Shown here: in pieces, positions 3,706-19,901 of the stretch | How the letters are laid out: each line of letters opens with the position of its first letter | How positions within the stretch are numbered: the stretch's first letter is position 1 | DNA from: Mesorhizobium sp. M9A.F.Ca.ET.002.03.1.2 | GTDB taxonomy: Bacteria > Pseudomonadota > Alphaproteobacteria > Rhizobiales > Rhizobiaceae | Direction: 5' to 3' | Assembly (NCBI RefSeq): GCF_003952365.1 | Contig: NZ_CP034443.1 | Coordinates: forward strand, 1,667,001-1,731,000 | Length of the DNA: 64,000 nucleotides | Position numbers and translations under genes: made by a program | Notes under the pieces: generated by a model | Seen by the model: only the letters and a program-made list of their open reading frames with translations | Database searches by the model: none | Told to the model about the DNA's origin: nothing

Positions 3706-3734
3706 GGGAATTCCTGGATAGTCTGAGTTCCTTC

Positions 3735-3895
3735 GCGCCCCCCTCTGTCCTGCCGGACATCTCCCCCACTTGGGGGGAGATTGCGCCGTCATTGCAGCTT
3801 TCGCCAATCACCAAAGTTGCAGAGGGAGAGCCGACGGCGGGACTGCCGATCTCCCCCCACGTGGGGGACATGTCCGGCAGGACAGAGGGGGGCGC
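3735..3895. repeat. 26-bp perfect inverted repeat flanking a spacer
   Basis: Bases 3735-3760 and 3870-3895 are exact reverse complements, starting GCGCCCCCCTCTGTCC on the left arm. Inner arms CTCCCCC/GGGGGAG lie next to both. The element sits just after pncB and runs up to the TTG start proposed for the next gene. The frame is open through it, so automatic annotation could translate it by mistake as an N-terminal extension. Confidence 0.85.
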
Positions 3896-3926
3896 CGCAG
3901 AGCGCGACCATAACCCGGTAGCTCAG

Positions 3927-5484: not shown

Positions 5485-6789
5485 GTGACTGACAAGAATG
5501 GGTTTTTCGATCTCTCCAAAACCGGTCTCACCCGCCGCACGGCGCTCAAAGGGTTGGCCGCGGGAGCCGGCCTTGCCGTCGCGCCCGGGTTCGTGCGTTA
5601 CAGCCAGGCGCAAAGCTCGGCGCCGATCAAGATCGGCTTCCAGTCTCACCGCACCGGCATCGGCGCTGCCTATGGCCGCTGGTACGAGAAGACCACCGCC
5701 GCCGCGGTCAAGGCGATCAACGACGCCGGCGGCATCAACGGCCGGCCGGTCGAGGTGATCATCGAGGATGACGGCACTGATCCCGGCCGCGGCGCCGAAG
5801 TGGTCGGCAAGTTCGCCACCCAGCACAAGACCGACATCGTCTACGGCACGCTGTTTTCGCATGTCGTCATCGGTTCGGCGCCGGCCGCCGGCGAGGCCAA
5901 GATGCCCTATTTTGTCGTCAGCGAAGGCCACCACGTCGCCTCGACCAAGCTCAACCGCTATGTCTTCCAGCCCGGCATCACCGACGTGAAGAGCCAGATC
6001 CAGTCGATGGCGCCGTGGATCGCGGCGAATGCCGGCAAGAAGGTGACGCAGATATTCCCCGATTTCGCCTTCGGTTACGATCATCGCGATTACCTGCCGC
6101 CGGCGCTGAAGGCGCAAGGCGCCGAGGTCATCGCCCAGATCGCCATCCCGCCGACGGAATCGTCCTTCACCAAATACTTCCCGCAGATCCCGGCCGAGAC
6201 CGAGGTGATCTACCACGTCATGGTCGGCCCGGCGGTGCTCACCTTCGTCAAGGAACTCGGCGAATTCTATGGCTCCAACCGGCCGCAGCTGTTCGGTTTC
6301 ATCGATTCGCTCGAAGCCACCGACATCAACAGCCCCGGCCTCGAATTCCTCGACGGCAGCCATTTCTGGGAAGGCTCGCCGCGCTATGCGCAGCCGGATG
6401 ATTCCGCCGCGCAGAAGGCTTATCGCGCCGCCGTCGGCATCGACGACAATGGTGCTGCCGTCGGCGATCCGAAGGACGTCTCCACCGCCGCGCACATGTT
6501 CGGCTGCTGGGAAACGCTCTATGTCGTCAAGAAGGCGATGGAGGATGCCGGCTACAAGGGCCCCGAAGACCGCGCCAAACTGGTCGAGGCGACCGAGGCC
6601 TTGACCGAATTCGCCGAGGGTCCCGAGCATCCGCAGGGGCCGAAGACCTTCAACGGCAAGATCCATCAGTGTTTCGGCATCCAGAATATCTCCAAGGTCG
6701 AAGGCGGCCGGCTGAACGTCGTCCACAAGACCAAGATCGAGGACGGCCTCTACGAGCCGGAAGGGGATTACACGACCCAGGCGCTGTGA
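5485..6789 (+). CDS. ABC transporter substrate-binding protein, branched-chain amino acid type, Tat-exported
   Basis: 434 residues, GTG start with AGGGGAA six bases upstream. The N-terminus has a twin-arginine signal (LTRRTALKGLA, arginines 17-18) and a hydrophobic stretch ending near residue 43. The rest is a periplasmic-binding protein of the LivK/AmiC type (IKIGFQSHRTG, then AAAVKAINDAGGINGRPVE and VIIEDDGTDP). It is the first gene of a five-gene importer with livH, livM, livG and livF. Members of this family bind branched-chain amino acids, urea, amides or aromatic acids. The neighbouring molybdenum hydroxylase suggests a heteroaromatic acid, which is inference only. Confidence 0.9.
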   Translation: MTDKNGFFDLSKTGLTRRTALKGLAAGAGLAVAPGFVRYSQAQSSAPIKIGFQSHRTGIGAAYGRWYEKTTAAAVKAINDAGGINGRPVEVIIEDDGTDPGRGAEVVGKFATQHKTDIVYGTLFSHVVIGSAPAAGEAKMPYFVVSEGHHVASTKLNRYVFQPGITDVKSQIQSMAPWIAANAGKKVTQIFPDFAFGYDHRDYLPPALKAQGAEVIAQIAIPPTESSFTKYFPQIPAETEVIYHVMVGPAVLTFVKELGEFYGSNRPQLFGFIDSLEATDINSPGLEFLDGSHFWEGSPRYAQPDDSAAQKAYRAAVGIDDNGAAVGDPKDVSTAAHMFGCWETLYVVKKAMEDAGYKGPEDRAKLVEATEALTEFAEGPEHPQGPKTFNGKIHQCFGIQNISKVEGGRLNVVHKTKIEDGLYEPEGDYTTQAL

Positions 6790-6944
6790 GGCGCCTCACC
6801 CTCCCCTTGTGGGGAGGGTCGGCGAATAGGCTTCGCATTTGCGAAGCCGATGAGACGGGGTGGGGGTCGCAGCGATCCGTGCCCCACTCCCCCCACCCGA
6901 CCGCTGCGCGGTCACCCTCCCCACGAGGGGAGGGTAAGGGCGCC
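6790..6944. repeat. Composite palindromic repeat between SBP and livH
   Basis: The element contains two short hairpins, ACCCTCCCCTTGTGGGGAGGGT near 6799-6820 and CACCCTCCCC...GGGGAGGGT near 6913-6935. A third hairpin, GGCTTCGCATTTGCGAAGCC, lies near 6829-6848. The outer ends GGCGCC are also complementary. It lies inside a probable operon and could cause partial termination or mRNA processing, setting a higher level of the binding protein than of the membrane genes. Confidence 0.75.
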
Positions 6945-6948
6945 CTGA

Positions 6949-7830
6949 ATGCACTTCGGACCTCATCTTCTCCTCGCCGCCCTTGAAGGCCTCGTCACCG
7001 CCGCCGTGCTGGCGCTGACGGCGCTTGGCCTGTCGCTGGTGTTCGGCGTCATGCGCGTCGTCAACGTCGCCCATGGCGAGTTCTTCATGCTGGGCGCGGT
7101 GCTTGCCTGGGCGATCTCCACGGCGATATCGGGCCATCCGTCGCTCGGCTTCCTGGCCGCCCTGGTGCTGGCGCCGCTGATCGTCGGCCTGATCGCGCTC
7201 GTCGCCGAACGGCTTGTGCTGCGCCGGCTGAATTACAATCCGGAAGCCACCATCGTCGCCACCATCGGCATGCTCTATATCATCCAGCAACTGGCGCTGA
7301 CCTTTTATGGTCCCGACGCACGGCCGGTGGAGCCGCCCTTCAACTACCGCATCCTTTTGCCCTGGTTCGGCTACTCCGGCTACAAGCTGTCGATCATCGC
7401 CGCATCCGCGCTTCTTCTGGTCGCGACGTGGTTCGTGCTGACGCGTACCAAAATCGGCCTCGTCATGCGCGCCACGCAATATGACAGCGAAACGGCGCAG
7501 GCCTTCGGCATTCCGGTCACCAGAGTCTACGCCGGCGTGTTCGCGCTCGGCGCCATGCTGGCGGCGGTGGCTGCGGTGCTGATCGTGCCGATCAGCCAGG
7601 CGCATTATCTGATGGGGCAGGACCCACTGCTCCTGTCCTTCATCGTCGTCATCATCGGCGGTCTCGGCTCGCTGCGCGGCACCGTCGTCGCCGCGGTGCT
7701 GATCGGCCTGTCGGACGGCATCATATCGGTGTTCTTCTCGCCGACGCTGGCCAAGATCATAGCCACGCTGCTGGTTGCCATGGTGCTGGTGTTCCGGCCG
7801 CAAGGCCTGTTCGGGACGGCATCGCGATGA
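6949..7830 (+). CDS. livH: Branched-chain-type ABC permease, LivH family
   Basis: 293 residues, usual length for LivH. It is an inner-membrane channel subunit with about eight membrane segments. Family signs are LGLSLVFGVMRVVNVAHGEFFMLGA near residue 25 and the cytoplasmic coupling region VIIGGLGSLRGTVVAAVLIG near residue 225, which contacts the ATPases. The start lies only four bases after the palindromic repeat, with weak ribosome-site support, so translation may depend on the structure of that element. It overlaps livM by four bases (ATGA). Symbol given by family role, not by proven substrate. Confidence 0.9.
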   Translation: MHFGPHLLLAALEGLVTAAVLALTALGLSLVFGVMRVVNVAHGEFFMLGAVLAWAISTAISGHPSLGFLAALVLAPLIVGLIALVAERLVLRRLNYNPEATIVATIGMLYIIQQLALTFYGPDARPVEPPFNYRILLPWFGYSGYKLSIIAASALLLVATWFVLTRTKIGLVMRATQYDSETAQAFGIPVTRVYAGVFALGAMLAAVAAVLIVPISQAHYLMGQDPLLLSFIVVIIGGLGSLRGTVVAAVLIGLSDGIISVFFSPTLAKIIATLLVAMVLVFRPQGLFGTASR

Positions 7831-8789
7831 AGGAGGCTTCACCGGTAAAGGCCTATGCGCTGCATCTGGGCGTCATCGCCCTGCTTTTCGCCCTGAGCTT
7901 CGTCCTGCCGGAGTATCACCACGGGCTGCTCGCCCGCATCATGGTGCTGGCGGTCTTCGCCATGGGCTACAACATGCTGTTCGGCTATGTCGGGCTGCTC
8001 AGCCTCGGCCACGCCATGTTCTTTTCAGCCGGGCTCTATGGCGCGGGCCTTGCCGTTATCCATCTCGGCTGGGGCGTGCCGGCCGCCTTCGCTGCCGGCC
8101 TTGCCTGCGGGGCGCTTCTTGCGCTCATCATCGGTGTGCTGGCACTGCGCACTTCTGGCGTCGCCTTCATGATCGTCACCATGATGTTCGCGCAGGTGTT
8201 CTATCTCATGATCCTCTACTTCGCCTCCTGGACCGGCGGCGACCAGGGCCTGGTGGTGCCGCAGGCGGCGCGTGTCCTCGTCGTTGGCAGCACGTCGCTC
8301 GGCCTCACCAATCCGACCGTGCGCTACATGAGCGCGCTCGCCCTGTTCTCGATCGTCCTGCTGGTGACGCTCGCCATCGTCCGCTCCAGGTATGGCCGTG
8401 TGCTGGTCGCCATCCGCGAAAACGAGGAGCGGACCAAAATGCTCGGTTACGACACGTTTTCCAACAAGCTCGCCGCGGTCGTCGTCTCCGGCACCATCTG
8501 CGCGGCTTCGGGCGCCGCCTACGCGCTGCTGTTCGGCTATGTCGGTTCGACCTTCGCCTCGGTGCAATATTCCATCCTGCCTCTGCTCTGGGTGCTGCTC
8601 GGCGGTGCTGCCACCACACTCGGTCCGCTGATCGGCACGCTGTTCATGTACTATGTCGTCGACATCACCAGCGGCTACACCTCCGCCTACCTGCTGATCG
8701 TCGGCATCGCGCTCATCCTGCTGGTGCTGTTTTTCCCCAAGGGCATCCTCGGTACCGTCCGTCAGCGTTGGTTCGGGTGGCTGCCATGA
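7827..8789 (+). CDS. livM: Branched-chain-type ABC permease, LivM family
   Basis: 320 residues. Second channel subunit with LivM features: LFGYVGLLSLGHAMFFSAG near residue 52 and the coupling segment LLGGAATTLGPLIGTLFMYY near residue 258. About nine or ten hydrophobic segments. It overlaps livH at its start and livG at its end by four bases each, so the three are translationally coupled. It forms the heterodimeric membrane pore with LivH. Confidence 0.92.
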   Translation: MKEASPVKAYALHLGVIALLFALSFVLPEYHHGLLARIMVLAVFAMGYNMLFGYVGLLSLGHAMFFSAGLYGAGLAVIHLGWGVPAAFAAGLACGALLALIIGVLALRTSGVAFMIVTMMFAQVFYLMILYFASWTGGDQGLVVPQAARVLVVGSTSLGLTNPTVRYMSALALFSIVLLVTLAIVRSRYGRVLVAIRENEERTKMLGYDTFSNKLAAVVVSGTICAASGAAYALLFGYVGSTFASVQYSILPLLWVLLGGAATTLGPLIGTLFMYYVVDITSGYTSAYLLIVGIALILLVLFFPKGILGTVRQRWFGWLP

Positions 8790-9511
8790 TGCCGCTGCTG
8801 ACCACCAAAGGCCTGTCCCGAAATTTCGGCGGCCTGCGCGCCGTCGACGGCGTCGACTTCGCGCTCATGCCGGGCGAGATCCGCGCCGTCATCGGCCCGA
8901 ATGGCGCCGGCAAGACCACCTTCGTCAGCCTGGTCAGCGGCCGCATACAGCCGTCCTCGGGTATGATTGTCTTCGATGGCGCCGACATCACCAACCTGCC
9001 GGCCTACGCCAGGGTTCGCCTCGGCGTCGCCTATACCTTCCAGATCACCAGCGTCTTTGCCAATCTAACCGCTTACGACAACGTCGCGCTGCCGGTGCAG
9101 CGCACGCTGACCGACGGCCGCTCGAAAGGCGCCGTCCATGCCGGCGTGATAGCGGCGCTGGAGCGCACCGGGCTTGCCGACCGCGCCCATATGCTGGCCG
9201 GGCAATTGTCCTATGGCCACCAGCGCCTGCTCGAAGTGGCCATGGGGCTGGCGCTGAAGCCGCGCCTTCTCATTCTCGATGAGCCGACACAAGGGCTGGC
9301 CGACAGCGAGATCGACAATTTCATCGGGCTGGTGCGCGAGATCGCCAAAAGCGCCACCGTGCTTCTGATCGAGCACAACATGCCGGTGGTCATGCACCTT
9401 GCCGACCGCATCACCGTCTTCGACGCCGGCAAGATCTTAGCCGAAGGCACGCCCGAACAGATCCGCGCCAATACGCAAGTGCAGGACGCTTATCTCGGAG
9501 CGACCCCATGA
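8786..9511 (+). CDS. livG: ABC transporter ATP-binding protein, LivG family
   Basis: 241 residues with the ATG at 8786 inside the livM stop (ATGA). The frame is open further upstream through livM, but that part is out-of-frame livM sequence. Walker A is GPNGAGKTT near residue 36, the signature is LSYGHQR (the usual LivG variant of LSGGQ) near residue 150, and Walker B is LLILDEPTQGL. The Q-loop region reads YTFQITSVFANLTAYDNV. It powers the importer together with LivF. Confidence 0.93.
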   Translation: MMPLLTTKGLSRNFGGLRAVDGVDFALMPGEIRAVIGPNGAGKTTFVSLVSGRIQPSSGMIVFDGADITNLPAYARVRLGVAYTFQITSVFANLTAYDNVALPVQRTLTDGRSKGAVHAGVIAALERTGLADRAHMLAGQLSYGHQRLLEVAMGLALKPRLLILDEPTQGLADSEIDNFIGLVREIAKSATVLLIEHNMPVVMHLADRITVFDAGKILAEGTPEQIRANTQVQDAYLGATP

Positions 9512-10227
9512 CTGAAACACGGTCTGAAGCACTGACCATCTCCGGGCTCGACTGCTTCTACGGCGAGGTCCAGGTGCTCTACGGCCTCGACCTCGTGCTG
9601 AACAGGGGCGAGGTGCTTTGCCTGTTCGGCCGCAACGGCGCCGGCAAGACGACGACGCTGAAGGCGATCATGGGCCTCGTTCCTTCCCGCGCCGGTTCGA
9701 TTAGGCTCGAAGGGCGGGAATTGACCGGCCTGCCGGCGCACGACGTGCCGAAGGCCGGCGTCGCCTACGTGCCGCAGGGCCGGCGGCTGTTCGCCGAGAT
9801 GACGGTAGCGGAAAACATCGAGATCGGCCTGATGGCCCGCGGCAAGGGCAAGGCGACGCGCGAAAATGTGCTCGATCTCTTCCCGCTGCTGCGCCAGCGG
9901 CTCAGGCAGCGCTCCGGCACGCTGTCGGGCGGCGAGCAGCAGATGCTGGCCATGGCACGGGCATTGTGCCTCGAGCCGCAGGTGCTTCTGCTCGACGAGC
10001 CGACCGAAGGGCTGATGCCGTCAATGATCGCCAGGATCCGTGAGACGGTGTCGAAGCTGCGCGAACTGGGTGTCTCGACGATCCTGGTCGAGCAGCGGGT
10101 CGATGCCGTACTGTCCGTCGCCGACCGGGTCTCGTTTATCGAGAACGGCCGCAACCGCGAGACCGTCGACGTCGAGCAGCTCCGCGCCGATCCGTCGGCG
10201 GTCCGTCGCTATGTCGGCGTGGGTTGA
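9508..10227 (+). CDS. livF: ABC transporter ATP-binding protein, LivF family
   Basis: 239 residues, overlapping livG by four bases. Walker A GRNGAGKTT near residue 42, the LivF-type PQGRRLFAEMTVAENI near residue 88, signature LSGGEQQMLAMARAL near residue 139 and Walker B VLLLDEPTEGLMP near residue 161. It is the last gene of the importer operon. Its stop codon is directly followed by the stop of the convergent antiporter gene, with no room for a dedicated terminator. Confidence 0.93.
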   Translation: MTETRSEALTISGLDCFYGEVQVLYGLDLVLNRGEVLCLFGRNGAGKTTTLKAIMGLVPSRAGSIRLEGRELTGLPAHDVPKAGVAYVPQGRRLFAEMTVAENIEIGLMARGKGKATRENVLDLFPLLRQRLRQRSGTLSGGEQQMLAMARALCLEPQVLLLDEPTEGLMPSMIARIRETVSKLRELGVSTILVEQRVDAVLSVADRVSFIENGRNRETVDVEQLRADPSAVRRYVGVG

Positions 10228-11658
10228 TCAGCCAAAGAACAGAAAACCCGCAATCAGGAATGTCGGGATCAGCACCGCGCCCGACCAACCCATATAGCCG
10301 AAGAAGCCCGGCATTTTGACGCCGCGATGTCTGGCGATGGCGTAGACCATGAAGTTCGGCGCATTGCCGATATAGGTGTTGGCGCCCATGAACACCGCCC
10401 CGGCCGAGATCGCCACCAGCGTCGAGGCGAAGGTGGTCATCAGATGCTGCGGGTCGCCGCCGGCGAGCTCGAAGAAAACCAGATAGGTCGGCGCATTGTC
10501 GAGGAAGGATGACAGCATCCCGGTCAGCCAGAAATAGGCAAGGTCGTTTGGCTCGCCCGTGGGCAAGCTGACAAGCGAGACCAGCGGCGCCAGAGCGCCG
10601 TCGAGGCCGGCCCTGAGGATGGCGACGACCGGCACGATGCAGATGAAGATGCCGGCGAACAGTTTCGCCACCTCGGCGATCGGCTCCCAGTGGAAGTTGT
10701 TCGCCTCGCGATGGCTTTTGTACGAGACGCGAAGCGAGAGGAAGGCAAGCGCCAAGATGATGGCGTCGCGCACGAGGTTCTGCAATTCGAGGCCCACGCC
10801 CTGGACGGAGAAAGTCACGCCCGGTTTCCAGGTCGCAGAAAGCAGGATCGCGCAGATCACCCCGGCCAGCAGCGGGACGTTGGCCAGGCCGCGGATGCGC
10901 ACCTTCGTATCAGGCGTCGGGTCCTTGATCTTCGGCATGCCTTCCTCTCGGCGATGCAGGATGACGTCGATCGCCAGGAAGACGGCGAGCACCACGCCAC
11001 CGACAAACAGCGTTTCCCGAAAAAGGTTCGCGGTGGTCCAGAAGAAATCGACGCCGCGCAGGAAGCCGACGAACAGCGGTGGGTCGCCGAGCGGCGTCAG
11101 CGAGCCGCCGATGTTGGACACCAGGAAAATGAAGAAGATGACGACATGGGCGTTGAACGGTCGGTTGTCGTTGGCGCGCAGGATCGGCCGGATCAGGATC
11201 ATCGAGGCGCCGGTCGTTCCGATGACCGAGGCGAGCATCGCGCCGATCAGCAGCAGTCCGGCATTCACCAGCGGCGTGCCATGGATGTTGCCGGCGACGA
11301 GGATGCCGCCCGAAATGGTGAACAACGCAAACAGAAGAATGATGAACGACATGTATTCGGTGAGCAGCGCATGCAGCACCGCCTCCGAGGCCGAAGGCAT
11401 GCCGAACGCAACCGCCAGCGGCACGACCACAAGTGCTGCCCAGAAGGCGGTGATCTTGCCGTAGTGATGCTCCCAGATGCGGTGGAAGAGCAACGGGCCG
11501 GTGGCGATCGACAGAAGCAGGCCGGCAAACGGCAGCCCCCACCACAGCGACATCGTTTCGCCCGGCAGCCCGTGGGCCTCGGCTGCGAGGGCTGACCCCG
11601 GAAACAGCGTTGCGACCGCCACCACAGCGCCCGCCGTCAAAGCCGCCGCAAACCGCAT
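10228..11658 (-). CDS. Sodium:proton antiporter-like membrane protein (NhaD/CitMHS/ArsB superfamily)
   Basis: 476 residues from the ATG at 11658, which has GAGGGGG five bases upstream. An N-terminal signal-like segment ending near ALAAEAHG is followed by about eleven or twelve membrane segments. Family-like motifs are LVSNIGGSLTPLGDPPLFVG near residue 180 and LDNAPTYLVFFELAGG near residue 389, the two re-entrant substrate/ion regions of this superfamily. The usual annotation is Na+/H+ antiporter, but relatives move carboxylates or arsenite. It is 41 bases downstream of pncA on the same strand, so a pncA-antiporter operon is likely. Confidence 0.82.
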   Translation of the reverse strand: MRFAAALTAGAVVAVATLFPGSALAAEAHGLPGETMSLWWGLPFAGLLLSIATGPLLFHRIWEHHYGKITAFWAALVVVPLAVAFGMPSASEAVLHALLTEYMSFIILLFALFTISGGILVAGNIHGTPLVNAGLLLIGAMLASVIGTTGASMILIRPILRANDNRPFNAHVVIFFIFLVSNIGGSLTPLGDPPLFVGFLRGVDFFWTTANLFRETLFVGGVVLAVFLAIDVILHRREEGMPKIKDPTPDTKVRIRGLANVPLLAGVICAILLSATWKPGVTFSVQGVGLELQNLVRDAIILALAFLSLRVSYKSHREANNFHWEPIAEVAKLFAGIFICIVPVVAILRAGLDGALAPLVSLVSLPTGEPNDLAYFWLTGMLSSFLDNAPTYLVFFELAGGDPQHLMTTFASTLVAISAGAVFMGANTYIGNAPNFMVYAIARHRGVKMPGFFGYMGWSGAVLIPTFLIAGFLFFG

Positions 11659-11699
11659 TAGGCCCCCTCTGGAATTGTGTCGGATGCGATTGGTGGTGT

Positions 11700-12299
11700 T
11701 CAAGCCAGCGTCACGCCGGCATCGCGCATTCGGTTCAGCATCGTCTCGAGGGAGCCATTGAGATTGATGCCGCGGCAGGCGTCGAGCCGCACTGTTGTGT
11801 GGAAGCCGTGCTTGACCGCATCGAGCGCCGAAAAGGCGACGCAGAAGTCGGTCGCCAGGCCGACCAGGGTGAGCGTGTCGATGCCGCGCTCCTGGAGATA
11901 GCCGGCAAGGCCGGTGGGCGTCGTCCGATCGTTCTCGAAGAAAGCCGAATAGCTGTCGATCTCCGGGTGGTAGCCCTTGCGGATCACCAGTTCGGCCTTG
12001 GTCCAGGCAAGGCCGGAATGGAAATCCGAACCCAGGCTGCCCTGGATGCAGTGGTCCGGCCACAGCGTCTGCGGGCCATAGGGCAGATCGATCGATTCAA
12101 AAGGCTGCTTGCCGGGATGGCTGGAGGCAAAGCTCGAATGGCCGGCGGGATGCCAGTCCTGCGTCAGCACGACATGTTCGCTCCGCCGGATCAGGTCGTT
12201 GACCAGTGGCACGATCTCGTCGCCGCCGGCCACCGCCAGCGCGCCGCCCGGGCAGAAATCGTTCTGCAGGTCGATAATAACAAGCGCTTCGTCGGCCAT
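11700..12299 (-). CDS. pncA: Nicotinamidase
   Basis: 199 residues from the ATG at 12299. Converts nicotinamide to nicotinate and ammonia. The isochorismatase-fold catalytic triad is visible as D10 (IIDLQNDF), K108 (VIRKGYHPEIDSYSAF) and C153 (GLATDFCVAFSA). Metal-site residues D48 and H50 (DWHPAGHSSF) and H83 (PDHCIQGS) are present. The product nicotinate is the substrate of PncB, 8 kb away, and possibly of the molybdenum hydroxylase whose operon starts divergently 307 bases away. It could therefore feed either NAD salvage or catabolism. Confidence 0.95.
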   Translation of the reverse strand: MADEALVIIDLQNDFCPGGALAVAGGDEIVPLVNDLIRRSEHVVLTQDWHPAGHSSFASSHPGKQPFESIDLPYGPQTLWPDHCIQGSLGSDFHSGLAWTKAELVIRKGYHPEIDSYSAFFENDRTTPTGLAGYLQERGIDTLTLVGLATDFCVAFSALDAVKHGFHTTVRLDACRGINLNGSLETMLNRMRDAGVTLA

Positions 12300-12502
12300 G
12301 GAGCCTCCCTCTTGTTTGTCCCGGAAGCATGACCCGAACGGGAGGACTGCCGAAACGTGGAATCCGGTGTTCGAAGCCCACCGAAAATGTCGCTGACGCA
12401 ACGGATGCAGAAACTTGACCAGATGGCCGGCTGCGTCAACCTCCAACGGCATACAAATGCGTGCCGCCGCGCCGATGCGGACGGACGGCGCAAACTCTGG
12501 CT

Positions 12503-12530
12503 TTGACAATTCCAGCCGGCTTGATATCAT
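12503..12530 (+). promoter_or_regulatory. Sigma-70-type promoter of the molybdenum hydroxylase operon
   Basis: TTGACA at 12503-12508, then 16 bases, then TATCAT at 12525-12530. It lies about 75 bases before the GTG start of the FAD subunit. The -35 is perfect and the -10 matches four of six positions of TATAAT, rare in this GC-rich background. Confidence 0.65.
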
Positions 12531-12543
12531 TTGCATACGAATG
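12528..12543. promoter_or_regulatory. Candidate operator overlapping the transcription start
   Basis: CATTTGCATACGAATG is an imperfect 16-base palindrome placed on the end of the -10 box. Its core GCATACGAATG recurs as GCATACAAATG at 12449-12459, where GCAT-ACAA-ATGC is itself palindromic. The operon ends in a MarR regulator gene, so these are natural candidates for its binding sites. The link to MarR is inference. Confidence 0.45.
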
Positions 12544-12605
12544 AATTTGACCGGCTCGGACGCCGGCTGGATCCCACCGGAAGGCCCCTTTTGGGAAGGC
12601 AAAGC

Positions 12606-13466
12606 GTGATCCGTTACGCGAAACCCACCACCGTCGACGAGGCGCTCGCTTTGCTGGGCGAGGGTTCGTGGCGCATCCTTGCCGGCGGCACCGATTTCTA
12701 TCCGGCGCAAGGAGCCAAGCCTTTCCGCGAAAATGTCCTCGACATCAACAGTCTCGCAGCGCTGCGCGGTATCGCCGAAACCGGGGACCATTGGGTCATC
12801 GGCGCGCGCACGACCTGGACCGATCTTGTCCGTCATCCGCTGCCGGCGGCTTTCGATGCGCTGAAGCAGGCGGCGCGGGAAGTGGGCTCCGTGCAGATCC
12901 AGAACGCCGCATCCATCGCCGGCAATCTCTGCAATGCCTCTCCGGCCGCCGACGGCGTGCCGGCGCTGCTCGTCCTCGACGCCGAGGTCGAACTGCGCTC
13001 CGCGGCGATGGCCCGCCATCTGCCGCTGGAAACATTCATCCTGGGGAACCGCCGCACGGAACTGCGGCCGGACGAAATGGTCACCGCCATCCGCGTGCCG
13101 AAAAACGCGGCCGCCGGCACGTCGGCTTTCGTGAAGCTCGGCGCGCGTCGCTATCTCGTCATTTCCATCGCCATGGCGGCCGCCCGCTTGTCCGTTGAGG
13201 ACGGCATCGTCGGTAATGTTGCCGTCGCCGTCGGCTCCTGTTCGGCGGTCGCCAAGCGTCTTTCAGGTGTCGAAGCAGCCTTGCGCGGCCTCCCGGTCAG
13301 CCACGCTCTCGCCACTGCGGTCCAGTCCGCGCCGATGGACGAGCTTTCGCCGATCGGCGATGTCCGCGGCAGCGCCGAATACCGGCTGGACGCCGCGCGC
13401 GAGATTGTCGCCCGCGCGGTGCTCGACGCGGCGGGTCATGTGCCTGCGGAAAAGGCGGCGGCATGA
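12606..13466 (+). CDS. Molybdenum hydroxylase FAD-binding subunit (CoxM/XdhB family)
   Basis: 286 residues from the GTG at 12606. Upstream ATG codons in frame would put the start inside the promoter. The FAD pyrophosphate-binding motif ILAGGTDFYP is at residues 21-30 and the second FAD motif VQIQNAASIAGNLCNASPAAD is near residue 95. It passes electrons from the [2Fe-2S] clusters of the partner subunit to an acceptor. The frame ends in an ATGA overlap with the fused subunit. Together they form a xanthine-dehydrogenase-like hydroxylase, here probably hydroxylating an N-heterocyclic ring. Confidence 0.9.
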   Translation: MIRYAKPTTVDEALALLGEGSWRILAGGTDFYPAQGAKPFRENVLDINSLAALRGIAETGDHWVIGARTTWTDLVRHPLPAAFDALKQAAREVGSVQIQNAASIAGNLCNASPAADGVPALLVLDAEVELRSAAMARHLPLETFILGNRRTELRPDEMVTAIRVPKNAAAGTSAFVKLGARRYLVISIAMAAARLSVEDGIVGNVAVAVGSCSAVAKRLSGVEAALRGLPVSHALATAVQSAPMDELSPIGDVRGSAEYRLDAAREIVARAVLDAAGHVPAEKAAA

Positions 13467-13546
13467 GCAAAGCTCAGCCCGACATGAGCAAAGCTCAGCC
13501 CGACATGAGCAAAGCTCAGCCTGGCATGACCGAAGCTCAGCCTGGC
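13463..13546 (+). repeat. Four 21-bp tandem repeats, each beginning with ATG
   Basis: Units at 13463, 13484, 13505 and 13526 read ATGAGCAAAGCTCAGC plus a short variable end, coding MSKAQPD, MSKAQPD, MSKAQPG and MTEAQPG. A fifth ATG follows at 13547. All are in the frame of the fused oxidoreductase. Confidence 0.95.
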
Positions 13547-16447
13547 ATGGAATGCGCCGACATCGCCTTCGAGGTCAACGGCGCCGCCGTTTCCGTCTGC
13601 GTGCCGCCGGTTCGCCGTCTCTCTTCGGTGCTGCGCGACGAATTGCGCCTGACCGGCACCAAGATCGGCTGCGACGCCGGCGACTGCGGCGCCTGCACGG
13701 TGCTTGTCGACGGCGAACCCGTCTGCGCCTGCCTCATGTCGGCGGCTTCTGCCGCTGGCACAGTGGTGACCACGGTCGAAGGGCTCGCCAACGGCAGATT
13801 GTCGGCGCTGCAAGCCTCGTTCCTCGACCACGGCGCGGCGCAATGCGGCATCTGCACACCCGGCCTGCTAATCGCGGCAACCGCGCTGCTGGACAACAAG
13901 CCCAACCCAACCGAGGCCGAAACCCAAGATGCGCTGGGCGGCGTCCTCTGCCGCTGCACCGGCTACCGGAAGATCATCGCGGCGGTGATGAATGCTGGAC
14001 GGTTCGCAAGTGATAGCGCTGCCCCTCATCCGCCTGCCGGCACCTTCTCCCCGTATAGTGACGGGGAGAAGGAAGAGGCTCCGGCGCTGGCGACCCCCTC
14101 TCCCCGTTCTTCACGGGGAGAGGGTAAGGGTGAGGGGCAGCGCCAACCTGACCAGCTCGACCGCACTCTTGACCGCAGAATGCCAACCTCGGGCCACGCC
14201 GTTGGTTCGTCCCCGATCAGGCTCGACGGCCTGCCGAAGGTCACCGGCGGCGAAAAATTCGGCGGCGATTCCTTCCCGGCCGATGCGCTGGCGGTGCTGG
14301 TGGTCCGCTCGCCGCACCATCATGCCCGCTTCGCCTTTGGCGAGCTCGACGGCTGGGTGAAAACCCATCCCGGCATCGTCGGCGTCTTCACCGCCGCCGA
14401 CATTCCCGGAAAGAACTGCTTCGGCGTCATTGCGCCTTTCGCCGACCAGCCGGCGCTGGCCGAAGGTTTTTCACGCTTTCGCGGCGAGGCGGTGGCGCTG
14501 GTTGCCGGCGAGCACGAAGCCATCCTCGATCTCGATCTTTCGGATTTTCCTGTTCGTTGGATCGAACTGCCGCACCTTCTGCAGCCTTGCGAGGCGCAGG
14601 CCGGCGGCGCGCGGCTGATCCACGAGAACCGGCCGGCGAACCTGCTCACATCAGGCTTTGTCGAGCGCGGCGACCCGGAGGCCGCCCTTGCCGGCTCGGC
14701 TTTCGTCGTTTCGGGGGCCATCGACACGTCCTGTGTCGAGCACGCCTATATCGAACCGGAAGCCGGCTATGCCTACATGGATGGCGACACGCTCGTCGTC
14801 GTTGCCTGTACGCAGGCGCCCTACATGGACCGCGACGACGTGGCAAAGGTGCTTGGCCTTGCCGTCGACAAGGTGCGTATCGTCCCGACCGCCACCGGCG
14901 GCGGTTTCGGCTCAAAGCTCGACGTTTCGTTGCAGCCGCTGATCGGCCTGGTCGCGATGAAGACCGGGCGGCCGGCGGCACTCGCCTATACCCGCAATGA
15001 ATCGATGATATCGACCACCAAGCGTCATCCCGCCGAGATGAAGGCGACGATCGGCGCCGATGCCGATGGCCGCGTCACCGGCATGGTTTTCGCGGGCGAT
15101 TTCAACACCGGCGCCTATGCGAGCTGGGGCCCGACCGTCGCCAACCGCGTGCCGGTGCACGCCTCCGGTCCCTATGCGACGCCGAACTATCGTGCCGAAG
15201 GCCGCGCCATCCACACAAATGGCCCGATCTCGGGCGCCTTCCGCGGTTTCGGCGTGCCGCAGGCGACGATCATGCAGGAAACCCTCTATGACGAGCTGGC
15301 CGGGAAGCTCGACATCGACCGGCTCGATTTTCGCCTGAAAAACTGCCTTCGTAACGGATCCGAAACGGTTACCGGCCAGAAGCTGGAATCGGGCGTCGGC
15401 ATCGCCGAGTGCCTTGAGGCGTTGCGGCCGCATTGGGAGCGTGCGCTTGTCGACGCCGAGACGTTCAACGCCGACAGTAGCACAAAGAAACGCGGCGTCG
15501 GCGTCGCCTCTTGTTGGTATGGCTGCGGCAACACCTCGCTGCCCAATCCGTCGACCATCCGGGTCGGCATCTCCGCCTATGGCGATGCCGTCCTGCACCA
15601 GGGTGCGGTCGATATCGGGCAAGGCTCGAACACGGTCATTGCCCAAATCTGTGCCGACGCGCTCGGTCTGCCGCTCGAAAGATTCCGGCTGAAAAGTGCC
15701 GACACCGCGATCACGCCGGACGCCGGCAAGACGTCCGCCTCACGCCAGACCTTCGTGACCGGCAAGGCCGCCGAAAAGGCCGGCCGCGCCTTGCGAGAAA
15801 TGATCTTGCGCTTCGCCAATGTCTCCGAAAATGCGACGATTGCCTTGGAAGGGCACAACTTGGCCATCGGCGAGGGAGAAGCGACGCGGCGGATCGATCT
15901 TTCGACGCTAAAGTCCGACGCTGACGGCTTCGTCTTTCGCGCCGAGGAAAGCTATGATCCGCCGACGCTGCCGCTCGATGCAAAGGGCCAGGGCAAGCCC
16001 TATGCCGTCTACGGCTACGGCGCGCAGATCGCCGAACTCGAGGTCGATCTCAAGCTCGGTACGGTGAAGCTGATCAAGATCACCGCCGCGCATGATGTCG
16101 GCAAGGCGATCAATCCTCTGCTCGCCGAAGGCCAGATCGAGGGCGGCATCGCACAAGGCATCGGCATGGCACTGATGGAGGAATACATCCCCGGCCGCAC
16201 CGAGAATCTGCACGACTACCTGATCCCGACGATCGGTGACGTGCCGCCGATCGAGACCATCCTGATCGAAGTTCCGGATCCGGAAGGACCCTTTGGCGCC
16301 AAGGGCCTGGGCGAGCATGTGCTGATCCCGACGGCGCCGGCGATCCTCAACGCCATCCGTCATGCCGCCGGCGTCCTGGTCACCAAAATTCCGGCGACGC
16401 CTGCCCGTATCCGCGCCGTCATCCGCGACAAGGAGGCACGCCGATGA
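13463..16447 (+). CDS. Molybdenum hydroxylase, fused [2Fe-2S] and molybdopterin-binding subunit
   Basis: 994 residues. After four 7-residue repeats (residues 1-28) comes a CoxS-like domain with plant-type cluster cysteines C70, C75, C78, C90 and second-cluster cysteines C128, C131, C163, C165. A linker of about 45 residues (185-227) is encoded by a palindromic repeat element. The CoxL-like molybdopterin domain follows (from SPIRLDGLPKVTGG), with the C-terminal GAKGLGE motif that holds the catalytic glutamate. In classic enzymes these are two subunits. The adjacent 6-hydroxynicotinate reductase homologue suggests nicotinate 6-hydroxylation; other N-heteroaromatics remain possible. The real start may be the fifth ATG at 13547 (MECADIAFEV). 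Confidence 0.88.
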   Translation: MSKAQPDMSKAQPDMSKAQPGMTEAQPGMECADIAFEVNGAAVSVCVPPVRRLSSVLRDELRLTGTKIGCDAGDCGACTVLVDGEPVCACLMSAASAAGTVVTTVEGLANGRLSALQASFLDHGAAQCGICTPGLLIAATALLDNKPNPTEAETQDALGGVLCRCTGYRKIIAAVMNAGRFASDSAAPHPPAGTFSPYSDGEKEEAPALATPSPRSSRGEGKGEGQRQPDQLDRTLDRRMPTSGHAVGSSPIRLDGLPKVTGGEKFGGDSFPADALAVLVVRSPHHHARFAFGELDGWVKTHPGIVGVFTAADIPGKNCFGVIAPFADQPALAEGFSRFRGEAVALVAGEHEAILDLDLSDFPVRWIELPHLLQPCEAQAGGARLIHENRPANLLTSGFVERGDPEAALAGSAFVVSGAIDTSCVEHAYIEPEAGYAYMDGDTLVVVACTQAPYMDRDDVAKVLGLAVDKVRIVPTATGGGFGSKLDVSLQPLIGLVAMKTGRPAALAYTRNESMISTTKRHPAEMKATIGADADGRVTGMVFAGDFNTGAYASWGPTVANRVPVHASGPYATPNYRAEGRAIHTNGPISGAFRGFGVPQATIMQETLYDELAGKLDIDRLDFRLKNCLRNGSETVTGQKLESGVGIAECLEALRPHWERALVDAETFNADSSTKKRGVGVASCWYGCGNTSLPNPSTIRVGISAYGDAVLHQGAVDIGQGSNTVIAQICADALGLPLERFRLKSADTAITPDAGKTSASRQTFVTGKAAEKAGRALREMILRFANVSENATIALEGHNLAIGEGEATRRIDLSTLKSDADGFVFRAEESYDPPTLPLDAKGQGKPYAVYGYGAQIAELEVDLKLGTVKLIKITAAHDVGKAINPLLAEGQIEGGIAQGIGMALMEEYIPGRTENLHDYLIPTIGDVPPIETILIEVPDPEGPFGAKGLGEHVLIPTAPAILNAIRHAAGVLVTKIPATPARIRAVIRDKEARR
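14016..14143. repeat. Palindromic repeat element inside a coding frame
   Basis: The outer arms GCGCTGCCCCTCA (14016-14028) and TGAGGGGCAGCGC (14131-14143) are exact complements. Two inner hairpins are also perfect: 14043-14054 with 14061-14072, and 14096-14107 with 14113-14124, each with 12-bp stems. The type is normally intergenic, like those at 3735 and 6790. Here the reading frame passes through it without a stop, giving a Pro/Ser/Gly/Glu-rich linker between the Fe-S and molybdopterin domains. Confidence 0.9.
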
Positions 16448-17988
16448 GCGAGCTTGCCGAACGTTTCGAGACGCATGATCCCGGCGAGAAGCAGGTGGCG
16501 GAGAAGATCCGCTGCGATGCCTGCCCGGTCATGTGCTACATCGCCGACGGCCGCACCGGCGCCTGCGACCGCTACGGCAATGTCGGCGGCAGGATCGTGC
16601 GGATAGATCCGCTGACCATCCTCGACCATGCGGCCGAGACCGGCGGCGCTGTCGTGCCGTTTGTCGCCGAAGGCGAGGCCTGGGACGGCGAACTGGTCAA
16701 TACCGGCCGCCGCTTCGTCACTGCGATCGGCGCCGGCACCACCTATCCCGACTACAAGCCGGCCCCTTTCATCGTCAGCCAGGAGGTCGAGGGCGTCGAT
16801 CTCGTCACCGTGGTCACCGAGGGCATCTTCTCCTATTGCGGCGTCAAGGTGAAAATCGACACCGACCGTCATATCGGTCCCGAAACGGCGACGGTGCGCG
16901 CCGGAGGCGAGGCGATCGGCCACGTCACGACAGGCGAATACGGCTCGCAGATGCTGTCGCTCGGCGGCGTGCATCATCTGACCGGCGGCTCGAAGGCCGA
17001 GGGTCGCGCCACCTGCGACGCGCTGCTTGATCTGTGCAACCGCAAGCCGGTCGAACTCACCATCGAGGGAGGTGCTGCAATCATCGTCGAAGCCGGCAAG
17101 CCGCCGGTCATCGACGGCAAGCTCGAACATCGCATGCGCGTCGGCTGCGGCTCGGCCACCATCGGCATGTTCGCCACCCAGTGGCGCGGCCTGGTCGACG
17201 AGGTGGTGGTGGTCGACGACCACATCACCGGCGTCGTTTCCGAGCATCAGGCTGGCAAGGTGCTGGGTTGGCAGGACACCGGCATCAAGATCATCGGCCG
17301 CCGTTCGACGCCGGGCCGCTATTTCAAGGTGTCCGAGCCCGGCCTCGGCTGGGGTGGCACCAACATTTCCGACCCGCTGTCGATCCTTGGCGAATGGAAC
17401 GCGAAGAAAGGCGCGCGGCCGGGCCTGTCGCTGCTGATGGTCTCGACCACCGGCGAGCAGTTCGCTTACTACGAACTCGACGACGAATTGAAGCCGGTTC
17501 AGAAACCGTTCCCGGAGCGGCTGCAGAAATCCGTCGGCCTGATCGAGGACAATTGCGAGCCGGCGCTGTGCACCGTGCTGTTCATAGGCGGCGCCGGCGG
17601 TTCGCTGCGCGCCGGCGTCACCGAGAACCCGGTCAATCTGACCCGCTCGGTGCAGGGCCTGACGACTTATGTCACGGTCGGCGGCGCACCGGTCTATGTC
17701 TGGCCGGGCGGCGGCATCACCCTGATGGTCGATGTCACCCGCGTGCCGGAAAATGCCTTCGGCTATGTGCCGACGCCGGCGCTGGTGGCACCGATCGAGT
17801 TCACGCTGCGCCGCGACGACTATGTCAGGCTCGGCGGCTATGAAGCCGAGATCCGCAGCGTCGAGGACATCCTTGCCAAGGGCGGCGAGTACCTCAATCC
17901 GCGTCATGGCACGGGCGCGCCAGCCAGCAATCCGTGGCCGCCGCTGGCACAGTTGCGGCGCGCAGCGGGCAACGGGGTTAGGCGATGA
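16444..17988 (+). CDS. 6-hydroxynicotinate reductase-like Fe-S protein
   Basis: 514 residues, overlapping the previous gene by four bases. An N-terminal cysteine cluster C24-x2-C27-x3-C31-x9-C41 would bind an iron-sulfur centre. The remainder is a Gly-rich soluble protein matching, as I recognise it, proteins annotated 6-hydroxynicotinate reductase. In Eubacterium barkeri this enzyme reduces 6-hydroxynicotinate to 1,4,5,6-tetrahydro-6-oxonicotinate, and Azorhizobium has been described to use a similar reductive route. Coming directly after a molybdenum hydroxylase, that would be the second step. Substrate not proven. Confidence 0.8.
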   Translation: MSELAERFETHDPGEKQVAEKIRCDACPVMCYIADGRTGACDRYGNVGGRIVRIDPLTILDHAAETGGAVVPFVAEGEAWDGELVNTGRRFVTAIGAGTTYPDYKPAPFIVSQEVEGVDLVTVVTEGIFSYCGVKVKIDTDRHIGPETATVRAGGEAIGHVTTGEYGSQMLSLGGVHHLTGGSKAEGRATCDALLDLCNRKPVELTIEGGAAIIVEAGKPPVIDGKLEHRMRVGCGSATIGMFATQWRGLVDEVVVVDDHITGVVSEHQAGKVLGWQDTGIKIIGRRSTPGRYFKVSEPGLGWGGTNISDPLSILGEWNAKKGARPGLSLLMVSTTGEQFAYYELDDELKPVQKPFPERLQKSVGLIEDNCEPALCTVLFIGGAGGSLRAGVTENPVNLTRSVQGLTTYVTVGGAPVYVWPGGGITLMVDVTRVPENAFGYVPTPALVAPIEFTLRRDDYVRLGGYEAEIRSVEDILAKGGEYLNPRHGTGAPASNPWPPLAQLRRAAGNGVRR

Positions 17989-18866
17989 ACGGCCCACAGG
18001 CGCATTGGCTTAAGGACGGCCGGCGGCTGCATCTCAACCATGGCCCGATCGACCTGATCATCGAGGCATCAGGCGATGCGAACGAATGCCGCGCCGCCTA
18101 TGGCCAGGCGGTGGCACGCTTCCAGACAATCCTGCCCGAACTTGTCGACGAACTCATCGAGCTGCGCCGCCCGGCTTCGTCACAGCCGCGCGCTTTCGCC
18201 GGGCCGACGGCGTGCCGCATGGAGGCGGCCGTCGTGCCGCTGGCGAAACAATTCATCACGCCGATGGCCGCCGTTGCCGGTTCGGTAGCCGACGAAATGC
18301 TTGGCGCGCTGCTGGCCGGGCGCCGACTCGATCGCGCCTATGTCAACAATGGCGGCGACAGCGCGATCCATCTCGGCAGCGACCAGTCCATGACCCTCGC
18401 CATTGCCGGGACAGGTCATGGGCTGGCGGACCGTATCACGATTCGCGCCGGGGACGGGATTCGCGGCGTTGCGACAAGCGGTTGGCGCGGCCGTTCCTTT
18501 TCGCTGGGCATCGCCGACGCCGTCACCGTGCTGGCGCGGACGGGTGCAGAGGCCGATGCCGCCGCGACCCTGATCGCCAACGCCGTCGACCTGCCCGGTC
18601 ATCCTGCCATCGAGCGCTTGCCGGCGCGCGATCTGGCGCCCGACAGCGACCTTGGCGATCGCCTAGTCATCCAAGGCGTAGGCCCGCTTTCCCCTGGTGA
18701 AATCGCCGCCGCGCTGGACAGCGGGCTTGCTGTCGCAGAAGATTTTCGGCGACAGGGCCTGATTGCCGCTTCAGCGCTGTTCCTTGCCGGTCAGGCACGG
18801 ATCGCCGGTCCCATGGCGCTCGCTGCGCCCAACGAGAAATCAAGGAAGGAAATTGCCGATGCCTGA
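17985..18866 (+). CDS. UPF0280 family protein
   Basis: 293 residues, start overlapping the reductase stop by four bases (ATGA). The segments ITPMAAVAGSVADEM (residues 91-105) and AYVNNGGDSAIHL (residues 118-130) are typical of UPF0280 and resemble motifs of the ApbE flavin-transferase superfamily. It may modify a partner protein with flavin or bind a nucleotide, but no activity is established. Its fixed position between the reductase and the AA_synth gene argues for a role in the same pathway. It overlaps the next gene by eight bases. Confidence 0.75.
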   Translation: MNGPQAHWLKDGRRLHLNHGPIDLIIEASGDANECRAAYGQAVARFQTILPELVDELIELRRPASSQPRAFAGPTACRMEAAVVPLAKQFITPMAAVAGSVADEMLGALLAGRRLDRAYVNNGGDSAIHLGSDQSMTLAIAGTGHGLADRITIRAGDGIRGVATSGWRGRSFSLGIADAVTVLARTGAEADAAATLIANAVDLPGHPAIERLPARDLAPDSDLGDRLVIQGVGPLSPGEIAAALDSGLAVAEDFRRQGLIAASALFLAGQARIAGPMALAAPNEKSRKEIADA

Positions 18867-19443
18867 GTTTGCGATCCGCAAGATTGCGGTGCTGACCGAA
18901 GAGATCTTTCACGAGGGCGGGCCGGTGGCGAAGGTTCCGCGCCGCCGCGCCGCCGCCATGGCGGTGGTGAAGAACCCGTTCGCCGGGCGCTATGTGGAAG
19001 AGCTGCAGGGCGCCATGGACGATCTGAAGCCGCTCGGCCTGCTGCTCTCCGACAAGCTGATCGCCGCATTGGGCGGCGACGTGAAACATATCGACGGCTA
19101 CGGCAAGGGCGCCATCGTCGGCATAGCGGGTGAGCTGGAGCATGGCGCGCTGTGGCATGTTCCTGGCGGCTACGCCATGCGCGAGCGGCTCGGCGACGCC
19201 AAGGCGATCGTGCCGTCGGCAAAGAAGGTTGGCGCCTTCGGCTCGCGGCTCGACGTGCCGCTCGGCCATATCAACGCCGCCTATGTGCGCAGCCATTTCG
19301 ATGCCATGGAGGTCGGCATCAGCGACGGGCCCCGTCCCGACGAAATCCTGTTCTGCCTCGCCATGAGCTGCGGCCCGCGCGTGCACGACCGCATGGGCGG
19401 CCTCGCGGCGAAAGACATCAAGGCTTGGGACGGGCTGCGGTGA
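18859..19443 (+). CDS. Amino acid synthesis (AA_synth, DUF1185) family protein
   Basis: 194 residues from the ATG at 18859, with AAGGAAGGA seven bases upstream inside the UPF0280 end. Starts MPEFAIRKIAVLTEEIFHEGG and contains HGALWHVPGGYAMRERLG near residue 94. I recognise the AA_synth family, whose biochemical role is not established despite the name. It could act on a ring-opened intermediate, which is speculation from position. The last bases overlap the MarR gene (GTGA). Confidence 0.7.
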   Translation: MPEFAIRKIAVLTEEIFHEGGPVAKVPRRRAAAMAVVKNPFAGRYVEELQGAMDDLKPLGLLLSDKLIAALGGDVKHIDGYGKGAIVGIAGELEHGALWHVPGGYAMRERLGDAKAIVPSAKKVGAFGSRLDVPLGHINAAYVRSHFDAMEVGISDGPRPDEILFCLAMSCGPRVHDRMGGLAAKDIKAWDGLR

Positions 19444-19901
19444 GCGGCGAGGACAATCTGCTCAAGCTCGTCGAGGCCGAGGAGCCTGACGAAAACGATT
19501 ACCGCTTGCAGGAGCAGGTCGGCTTCATCCTGCGCAAGGCGCACCAGCGCCATGTCTCGATCTTCGCGGCACATATCGCCGACCTGACACCGCCGCAATT
19601 CGCCGCCCTGGCCAAATTGCACGACGTCGGCGAGACCTCGCAGAACCAGCTTGGCAGCCTGATCGCCATGGACGCGGCGACGGTGAAAGGTGTGATCGAC
19701 CGGCTCAAGGCGCGCGGCTTGGTCGAGCTTTCCAAGCATGAGGTCGACAAAAGGCGTCTGCTGGTCAATCTGACCGCCGAGGGCCGCGATGCCATCGAGC
19801 GGCTGATCCCGATCGCCCGCGACATCACGGAGGAAACGTTGGCGCCGCTGTCCGCCAAGGAGGTCGCCACCTTCATGAGGCTTTTGGCCAAGCTGGCCTG
19901 A
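19440..19901 (+). CDS. MarR family transcriptional regulator
   Basis: 153 residues from a GTG overlapping the upstream stop. Winged-helix features: LTPPQFAALAKLHD, then the recognition-helix region SQNQLGSLIAMDAATVKGVIDRL and the wing DKRRLLVNLTAEGRD. It closes the catabolic operon and is probably its ligand-sensing repressor. NicR/BpsR, MarR proteins that answer to 6-hydroxynicotinate in Pseudomonas and Bordetella, are a functional parallel. Candidate operators are at 12528-12543 and 12449-12460. Confidence 0.9.
   Translation: MSGEDNLLKLVEAEEPDENDYRLQEQVGFILRKAHQRHVSIFAAHIADLTPPQFAALAKLHDVGETSQNQLGSLIAMDAATVKGVIDRLKARGLVELSKHEVDKRRLLVNLTAEGRDAIERLIPIARDITEETLAPLSAKEVATFMRLLAKLA

Follow-up and report, generated by a model that had tools for sequence, protein, structure and literature searches.

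Comparative analysis of a putative nicotinate uptake and reductive degradation cluster of Mesorhizobium, with a predicted partner of 6-hydroxynicotinate reductase and a candidate ring opener encoded elsewhere in the genome

Results and Discussion

A 64,000-nucleotide stretch of the genome of Mesorhizobium sp. M9A.F.Ca.ET.002.03.1.2 (contig NZ_CP034443.1, positions 1,667,001 to 1,731,000; referred to as the window, whose own numbering is used for its genes) carries a gene cluster for which an initial annotation had proposed the uptake and reductive catabolism of an N-heteroaromatic acid. The cluster is real and largely of a known type, and its comparison with other genomes provides three new results: the co-occurrence of UPF0280 with a homologue of 6-hydroxynicotinate reductase (Hnr), the complementarity of enamidase and HyuA, and the division of AA_synth proteins into two subtypes. 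We consider it moderately probable that the window encodes the uptake and the upper half of a reductive nicotinate route, with a HyuAB ring opener located outside the window, UPF0280 serving Hnr and AA_synth acting after ring opening. This reading is built on comparisons, namely the UPF0280-Hnr and enamidase/HyuA patterns and the association of AA_synth subtype B with enamidase, and every chemical step in it is predicted from sequence. The initial annotation as a whole was partly supported. Its proposal of an undescribed system did not hold, as clusters of this type were already published in 2012 (PMC3511419).

UPF0280 occurs together with the reductase homologue

The Hnr homologue (16444-17988, plus strand) was identified by the names of its database relatives, many of which (among the best 120 of 7999) are called 6-hydroxynicotinate reductase. 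The closest proteins among the matches listed belong to Mesorhizobium (96%), and no match was found in Pfam, NCBIfam or PDB. The UPF0280/COG2122 protein (17985-18866, plus strand) is assigned by NF003322 (392.9 bits, cut-off 290) and PDB 2o34 (E 5e-4).

A set of 398 Pseudomonadota genomes was searched for Hnr, UPF0280 and AA_synth. Hnr matches were obtained in 33 genomes and 32 remained after G022, with a match of only 33 residues (E 9.8e-4), was dropped. UPF0280 was present above the cut-off in all 32 Hnr-positive genomes and in none of the 366 others. Matches below the cut-off in G293 and G373 were rejected, both being ApbE proteins. The Hnr homologue of G016 is split over two frames (L125:9225-10800), representing a frameshift or a sequencing error; it was included in the counts, from which G022, G293 and G373 were left out. 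The Hnr-positive survey genomes are clumped phylogenetically, nine of the 32 belonging to genus g11 (by inference probably Bradyrhizobium) and nine to the genus of the window.

Within the contig collection, the UPF0280 gene adjoins Hnr in 79 of 80 Hnr loci, and the arrangement is therefore not a matter of chance. In the single remaining locus (L104) UPF0280 is encoded elsewhere in the genome. It was also found in 31 of 31 other Hnr-positive genomes (30 above the cut-off), which together with the L104 genome gives 32 of 32 further genomes. As UPF0280 is present in this sample exactly where Hnr is, we conclude with high confidence that it is a partner that serves Hnr. It was earlier suggested as a possible ring opener, a role that is not supported, since its presence follows Hnr and not the type of opener. 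No link between UPF0280 and Hnr was found in open-licence papers, which is weak evidence of absence.

Possible functions of UPF0280

Attachment of flavin to Hnr is proposed tentatively, because UPF0280 is a distant relative of ApbE and the Hnr of Eubacterium barkeri, in the work of Alhapel from 2006, is said to contain covalent flavin. Ten out of 19 family members match PF02424 (ApbE) with a best E of 1.7e-4, and comparison of the UPF0280 and ApbE profiles gave E 5.8e-5 with a probability of 66 over 39 columns; the window protein itself matches no Pfam family up to E 10, PF02424 included. The strongest invariant motifs of UPF0280, NNGGD, ATSG and ADxxAT (ADAAAT in the window protein), are ApbE-like. 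S165 of ATSG and D191 of ADAAAT are invariant in all 19 members and were likened by eye to the ApbE proteins L162/L163; the Asp-Ser-His set of Vc_ApbE consists of S241, D285 and H257 (PMC12052999, available text).

Several points speak against flavin attachment. The catalytic histidine (H257 of Vc_ApbE) has no counterpart in UPF0280, where no invariant histidine lies between ATSG and VTV and this stretch counts 13 residues versus 31 in two ApbE proteins, i.e. 18 fewer. The ApbE target motif D-x-x-[ST]-G-A-[ST] is found in none of the 100 Hnr proteins of the loci, nor in the window Hnr, and the flavin idea leans on the covalent flavin reported for the E. barkeri enzyme. A broader proposal is doubtful: UPF0280/COG2122 proteins would be cytosolic protein-flavinylating enzymes of a second class, which lacks the histidine, and would load both Hnr and, in methanogens and sulfate reducers, the COG1900 sulfurtransferase. 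If COG2122 flavinylates the latter, its need in homocysteine synthesis would thereby be explained.

A different explanation, which we rate as rather unlikely, is a role of UPF0280 in sulfur trafficking or as a persulfide factor, by which an Fe-S cluster or a sulfur ligand would be built into Hnr, with no flavin role. This would agree with the many Hnr cysteines that are invariant across relatives, with the missing histidine segment and target motif described above, and with statements in the available text of two papers, according to which COG2122 is required for homocysteine formation in Desulfovibrio vulgaris, a persulfide modification being suggested (PMC5764234), and a sulfur-trafficking role is cited for MA1715 (PMC12068725). 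However, the 19 aligned UPF0280 members share no invariant cysteine, and their strongest motifs are the ApbE-like ones. It is also unlikely, and a little more so, that UPF0280 belongs to the Hnr complex as a structural subunit (e.g. flavin- or substrate-binding) instead of being a maturase. Strict pairing and adjacency would be expected of a subunit, but the E. barkeri enzyme is reportedly built of one kind of subunit, and the sole fusion-length protein (796 amino acids) among the best 120 of 7999 Hnr relatives carries a Mo-subunit domain instead.

Ring opening by enamidase or HyuAB

In a genome outside the class of the window's genome (locus L123), an amidohydrolase gene is situated about 2 kb from Hnr, and its product matches PDB 2vun ENAMIDASE over the full length (E 3.6e-109); this structure is that of the Eubacterium barkeri ring opener. 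A genome-wide search for enamidase in the genome of the window, a single contig of 6,415,165 bases reported as 100% complete, gave no more than a match to a fragment (E 2.6e-4, 41% over residues 31-110). Enamidase matches weaker than E 1e-7 were treated as fragments and not counted. The alternative raised earlier, that the pathway ends elsewhere, agrees with these results and with a unit of a ferredoxin-NADP-reductase-like gene, HyuA and HyuB found upstream, outside the window. HyuA (contig positions 1592953-1595028) is 94% identical to the copy in the Hnr neighbourhood of L032 and matches the 5-oxoprolinase structure 6yra (E 3e-112); HyuB, which follows it, matches PF02538 with 512 bits and ends about 87 kb before the start of Hnr. 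Both subunits of an ATP-dependent hydantoinase/oxoprolinase are thus encoded in this genome.

HyuA proteins counted as nicotinate-type had at least 62% identity, and those of 46% or less were not counted, which includes the further HyuA proteins that these genomes encode. HyuA of G414 is in two pieces (68% and 60%) and was counted as present, and that of G426 lacks its first part. Among 100 loci (L031-L130), enamidase occurs in 14 and HyuA of this one type in 28, never both, and 58 contain neither within the stretch of sequence available for the locus. Searched genome-wide, the 32 Hnr-positive survey genomes have enamidase only (15), HyuA only (15) or both (two), and none is without an opener; in the two with both, the enamidases form a separate branch and are located at a second site without Hnr. 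Ten Hnr-negative relatives contain neither enamidase nor nicotinate-type HyuA. The opener is also exchanged inside families: f2 includes G167 with HyuA and G382 with enamidase, and f17 includes G339 with enamidase and G277, G333, G367 and G386 with HyuA.

A forecast based on the AA_synth subtype was made for loci of the contig collection without a visible opener, 31 of the 54 being picked before looking and 23 left out. Enamidase was forecast for the loci with subtype B and was found in three of three. HyuA was forecast for the loci with subtype A only and was found in 21 of 23, three of the 21 having enamidase as well; the misses were G422, with enamidase instead, and G413, with neither. For five loci without AA_synth no forecast was made (HyuA in three, enamidase in two). 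In total, the 31 test genomes comprise six with enamidase only, 21 with HyuA only, three with both and one with neither, and the combined 63 Hnr-positive genomes comprise 21, 36, five and one, respectively.

Based on this complementarity, HyuAB probably opens the ring of 1,4,5,6-tetrahydro-6-oxonicotinate (THON) in the genome of the window. The available text on OplAB, a member of the HyuAB family, describes the opening of delta-valerolactam (PMC11033972). Some observations detract from this assignment. The Fisher values for complementarity (p of 4.6e-11 for 63 genomes and 7e-4 for the 31 alone) overstate the independence of the genomes, which are clumped; both openers occur in five of the 63 and neither in G413; and acetone and acetophenone carboxylases are among the relatives of HyuA, so that HyuAB need not be a lactamase. 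No link between HyuAB and nicotinate was found in the literature, a negative that covers open-licence papers and is weak evidence of absence. A ferredoxin-NADP-reductase-like gene adjoins enamidase in many loci and HyuA in others (e.g. L123:8101-8928, L184:8905-9870). This gene beside the opener is a likely electron source for Hnr.

AA_synth at the ring-opening stage

The AA_synth gene (PF06684, 233 bits, above the cut-off; ATG start, 18859-19443, plus strand) encodes a protein with the structures 3byq and 2qtp as matches and with a model equal to the solved DUF1185 structures; its likeness to chorismate mutase, Rid and the cyclic amide hydrolase (barbiturase/AtzD) group is weak. The co-occurrence survey proposed in the initial annotation placed UPF0280 and Hnr in the same 32 of 398 genomes, but AA_synth was less exclusive, being present in 59 of 398 (31 of 32 Hnr-positive genomes and 28 of 366 others).

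Two subtypes could be distinguished, A (that of the window) and B (that of the g11 genomes). Subtype B is present in all 14 enamidase-bearing Hnr loci and at the two second enamidase sites (L205, L206); the 28 HyuA loci contain A only (25), A and B (L128) or no AA_synth (L106 and L120). Genome-wide among the 31 test genomes, B (at least 67% identity) accompanies enamidase in nine of nine cases and occurs in two of the 22 genomes without it. At the second sites (L205:1996-11724, L206:1848-12694), AA_synth A and B and enamidase are encoded with a MarR-like gene, an isochorismatase-family hydrolase, a nucleoside hydrolase and a Bmp-type importer, Pfam annotation being made at L205 only. Neither Hnr nor UPF0280 is found there, and these sites possibly serve the breakdown of a pyridine nucleoside.

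Because B accompanies enamidase and A and B sit together at enamidase sites without Hnr, AA_synth can be placed with fair confidence at or after ring opening. The earlier idea that it opens the ring was right as to the stage it tracks; AA_synth is, however, unlikely to be the opener itself, since it coexists with both kinds. Its failure to appear in the Hnr-positive genomes G139 and G425 tells against the proposed role. According to the available text of PMC7913881, TgnF, called a homologue, stimulates semialdehyde oxidation in trigonelline breakdown. It is possible, and put forward with reserve, that AA_synth converts an aminomethylene- or formyl-dicarboxylate by deamination or decarboxylation. 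It is improbable that HyuAB performs another step in the lineages that have it and that AA_synth, whose fold would resemble that of cyclic amide hydrolases, opens the ring there; the carboxylases among the HyuA relatives would allow for it, and the coexistence of AA_synth with both openers speaks against it.

Nicotinate as the substrate

The cluster is highly probable to be a route for nicotinate, which is favoured as the substrate because pncB and pncA flank it. Both were absent from the gene list of the initial annotation. PncB, a nicotinate phosphoribosyltransferase (2401-3705, plus strand; PF04095 155 bits, PF17767 93 bits), ends 1.8 kb ahead of the binding-protein gene, and the nicotinamidase PncA (11700-12332, start approximate, minus strand) is assigned by NF008623 (222 bits, cut-off 174). 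The suggestion that an acid of the nicotinate type is taken up, hydroxylated and reduced is strengthened by these genes and by the grouping of Hnr with published Azorhizobium/Bradyrhizobiaceae clusters.

A PncA match was found in 41 of the 80 loci, of which only four fall within L070-L110 (41 loci), and PncA is also present at the distant loci L122 and L123. A PncB homologue (71-72% identity) is located near Hnr in L111-L113. The CitMHS_2 transporter matches in 25 of 80 loci and in none of L070-L110. A membrane protein without Pfam match (open reading frame limits 3702-5318, plus strand; conserved part from about 3984) probably belongs to the system, because its conserved part recurs in 24 of 80 loci; it is also present in L127 and L130. 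It is very improbable that a different N-heteroaromatic acid is the substrate and that PncA and PncB are neighbours by accident: the specificity of the xanthine dehydrogenase family is not readable from sequence and the assignment to nicotinate comes from the genes only, but both PncB and PncA flank the cluster, PncA recurs at L122 and L123, and strain SG-6C, with the same cluster type, degrades 6-hydroxynicotinate (PMC3511419, available text).

In one g11 genome (L112:4954-8984) a molybdenum hydroxylase with cytochrome c domains, not of the flavin adenine dinucleotide (FAD) type, adjoins Hnr. Because this type stands there in place of the FAD type, lineages may differ in the enzyme of the first step as well.

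Proposed pathway

In the proposed pathway, nicotinamide would be deamidated by PncA, and nicotinate, once imported by the ATP-binding cassette (ABC) system, would be divided between salvage through PncB and degradation. The molybdenum hydroxylase would form 6-hydroxynicotinate, which Hnr would reduce to THON, a cyclic enamide and six-membered lactam, with electrons from the ferredoxin-NADP reductase encoded elsewhere with HyuAB. The ATP-dependent HyuAB would open the lactam in place of enamidase. UPF0280 would most likely act as a maturation factor for Hnr, flavin loading or covalent attachment being the best guess, and AA_synth could catalyze a step on the aminomethylene- or formyl-dicarboxylate after ring opening.

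If true, a gap in aerobic nicotinate breakdown would be filled by a different kind of ring opener, and the opener used by each genome would become predictable. Two family-unknown proteins would be sorted into two modules, Hnr maturation and post-ring-opening. COG2122, needed for homocysteine synthesis by unclear biochemistry, would gain a partner testable in ordinary laboratory strains.

Gene organization

The positions and families given in the initial annotation for the importer, molybdenum hydroxylase, Hnr, UPF0280, AA_synth and MarR regulator were confirmed by open reading frames and profile matches (Hnr having no Pfam or NCBIfam model). The near-continuous overlaps of four to eight bases were found within two compact blocks, importer (6949-10227) and catabolic (12531-19901), where junctions are 4-base overlaps except for the 8-base overlap of UPF0280 and AA_synth. 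On the plus strand, a periplasmic binding protein of the branched-chain amino acid type, a putative nicotinate binder (5485-6789; PF13458, 162 bits), is followed by ABC permeases 1 (6949-7830) and 2 (7827-8789), the LivG-like ATPase 1 (from about 8786 to 9511; PF00005, PF12399) and the LivF-like ATPase 2 (9508-10227); the permeases and ATPase 2 were assigned as open reading frames of conserved order. Two minus-strand genes, CitMHS_2 (10228 to about 11655; PF16980, 629 bits) and PncA, split the blocks. The catabolic block, on the plus strand, starts with the FAD subunit of a xanthine-dehydrogenase-family hydroxylase, a putative nicotinate dehydrogenase (12531-13466; PF00941, PF03450), and the fused [2Fe-2S] and molybdopterin subunit (13463-16447; PF00111, PF01799, PF02738 and PF20256, all above cut-offs), and ends with the MarR regulator (19440-19901; PF01047). 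Further downstream, two luciferase-like monooxygenase genes (PF00296; 25133-26191 and 27615-28676) flank an AI-2E family transporter gene.

Comparison with known systems

The nicotinate fermentation of Eubacterium barkeri, in the 2006 work of Alhapel, reportedly includes Hnr and the THON intermediate, both also part of the route predicted for the window; the ring opener and the later steps differ. Nicotinate degradation clusters are described in the available text of PMC3511419 for Azorhizobium caulinodans, Bradyrhizobium japonicum USDA110, Rhodopseudomonas palustris HaA2 and Bradyrhizobiaceae SG-6C, the SG-6C Hnr homologue being 42% identical to the Eubacterium barkeri enzyme, and they share with the window the proposed route through THON. 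The g11 genomes carry enamidase (nine of nine) and, at L112 as the single locus scanned, a dehydrogenase with cytochrome c domains, whereas in the genome of the window the dehydrogenase is of the FAD type and enamidase is lacking.

The COG2122 proteins MA1715 and DvMF_0044 (PMC5764234, PMC12068725; available text) belong to the same family as the window UPF0280, a tie also seen in NF003322 matches below the cut-off in both methanogen control genomes. Their partner is DUF39/COG1900, in contrast to Hnr here, which has no PF01837 match. The PF06684 proteins BB2672 and SPO0826 (PMC2954203, available text) share the family and the invariant hexamer-interface residues of the window AA_synth, and TgnF (PMC7913881, available text) acts on another pyridine, trigonelline. 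The A/B division and its tie to enamidase are reported here and were not found in the available text of these two papers. The ATP-dependent lactamases OplAB (PMC11033972) and CapAB (PMC8453981), as described in the available text, belong to the same HyuA/HyuB family, in which the nicotinate-linked HyuA clade is only a putative lactamase; the substrate of OplAB is, like THON, a six-membered lactam.

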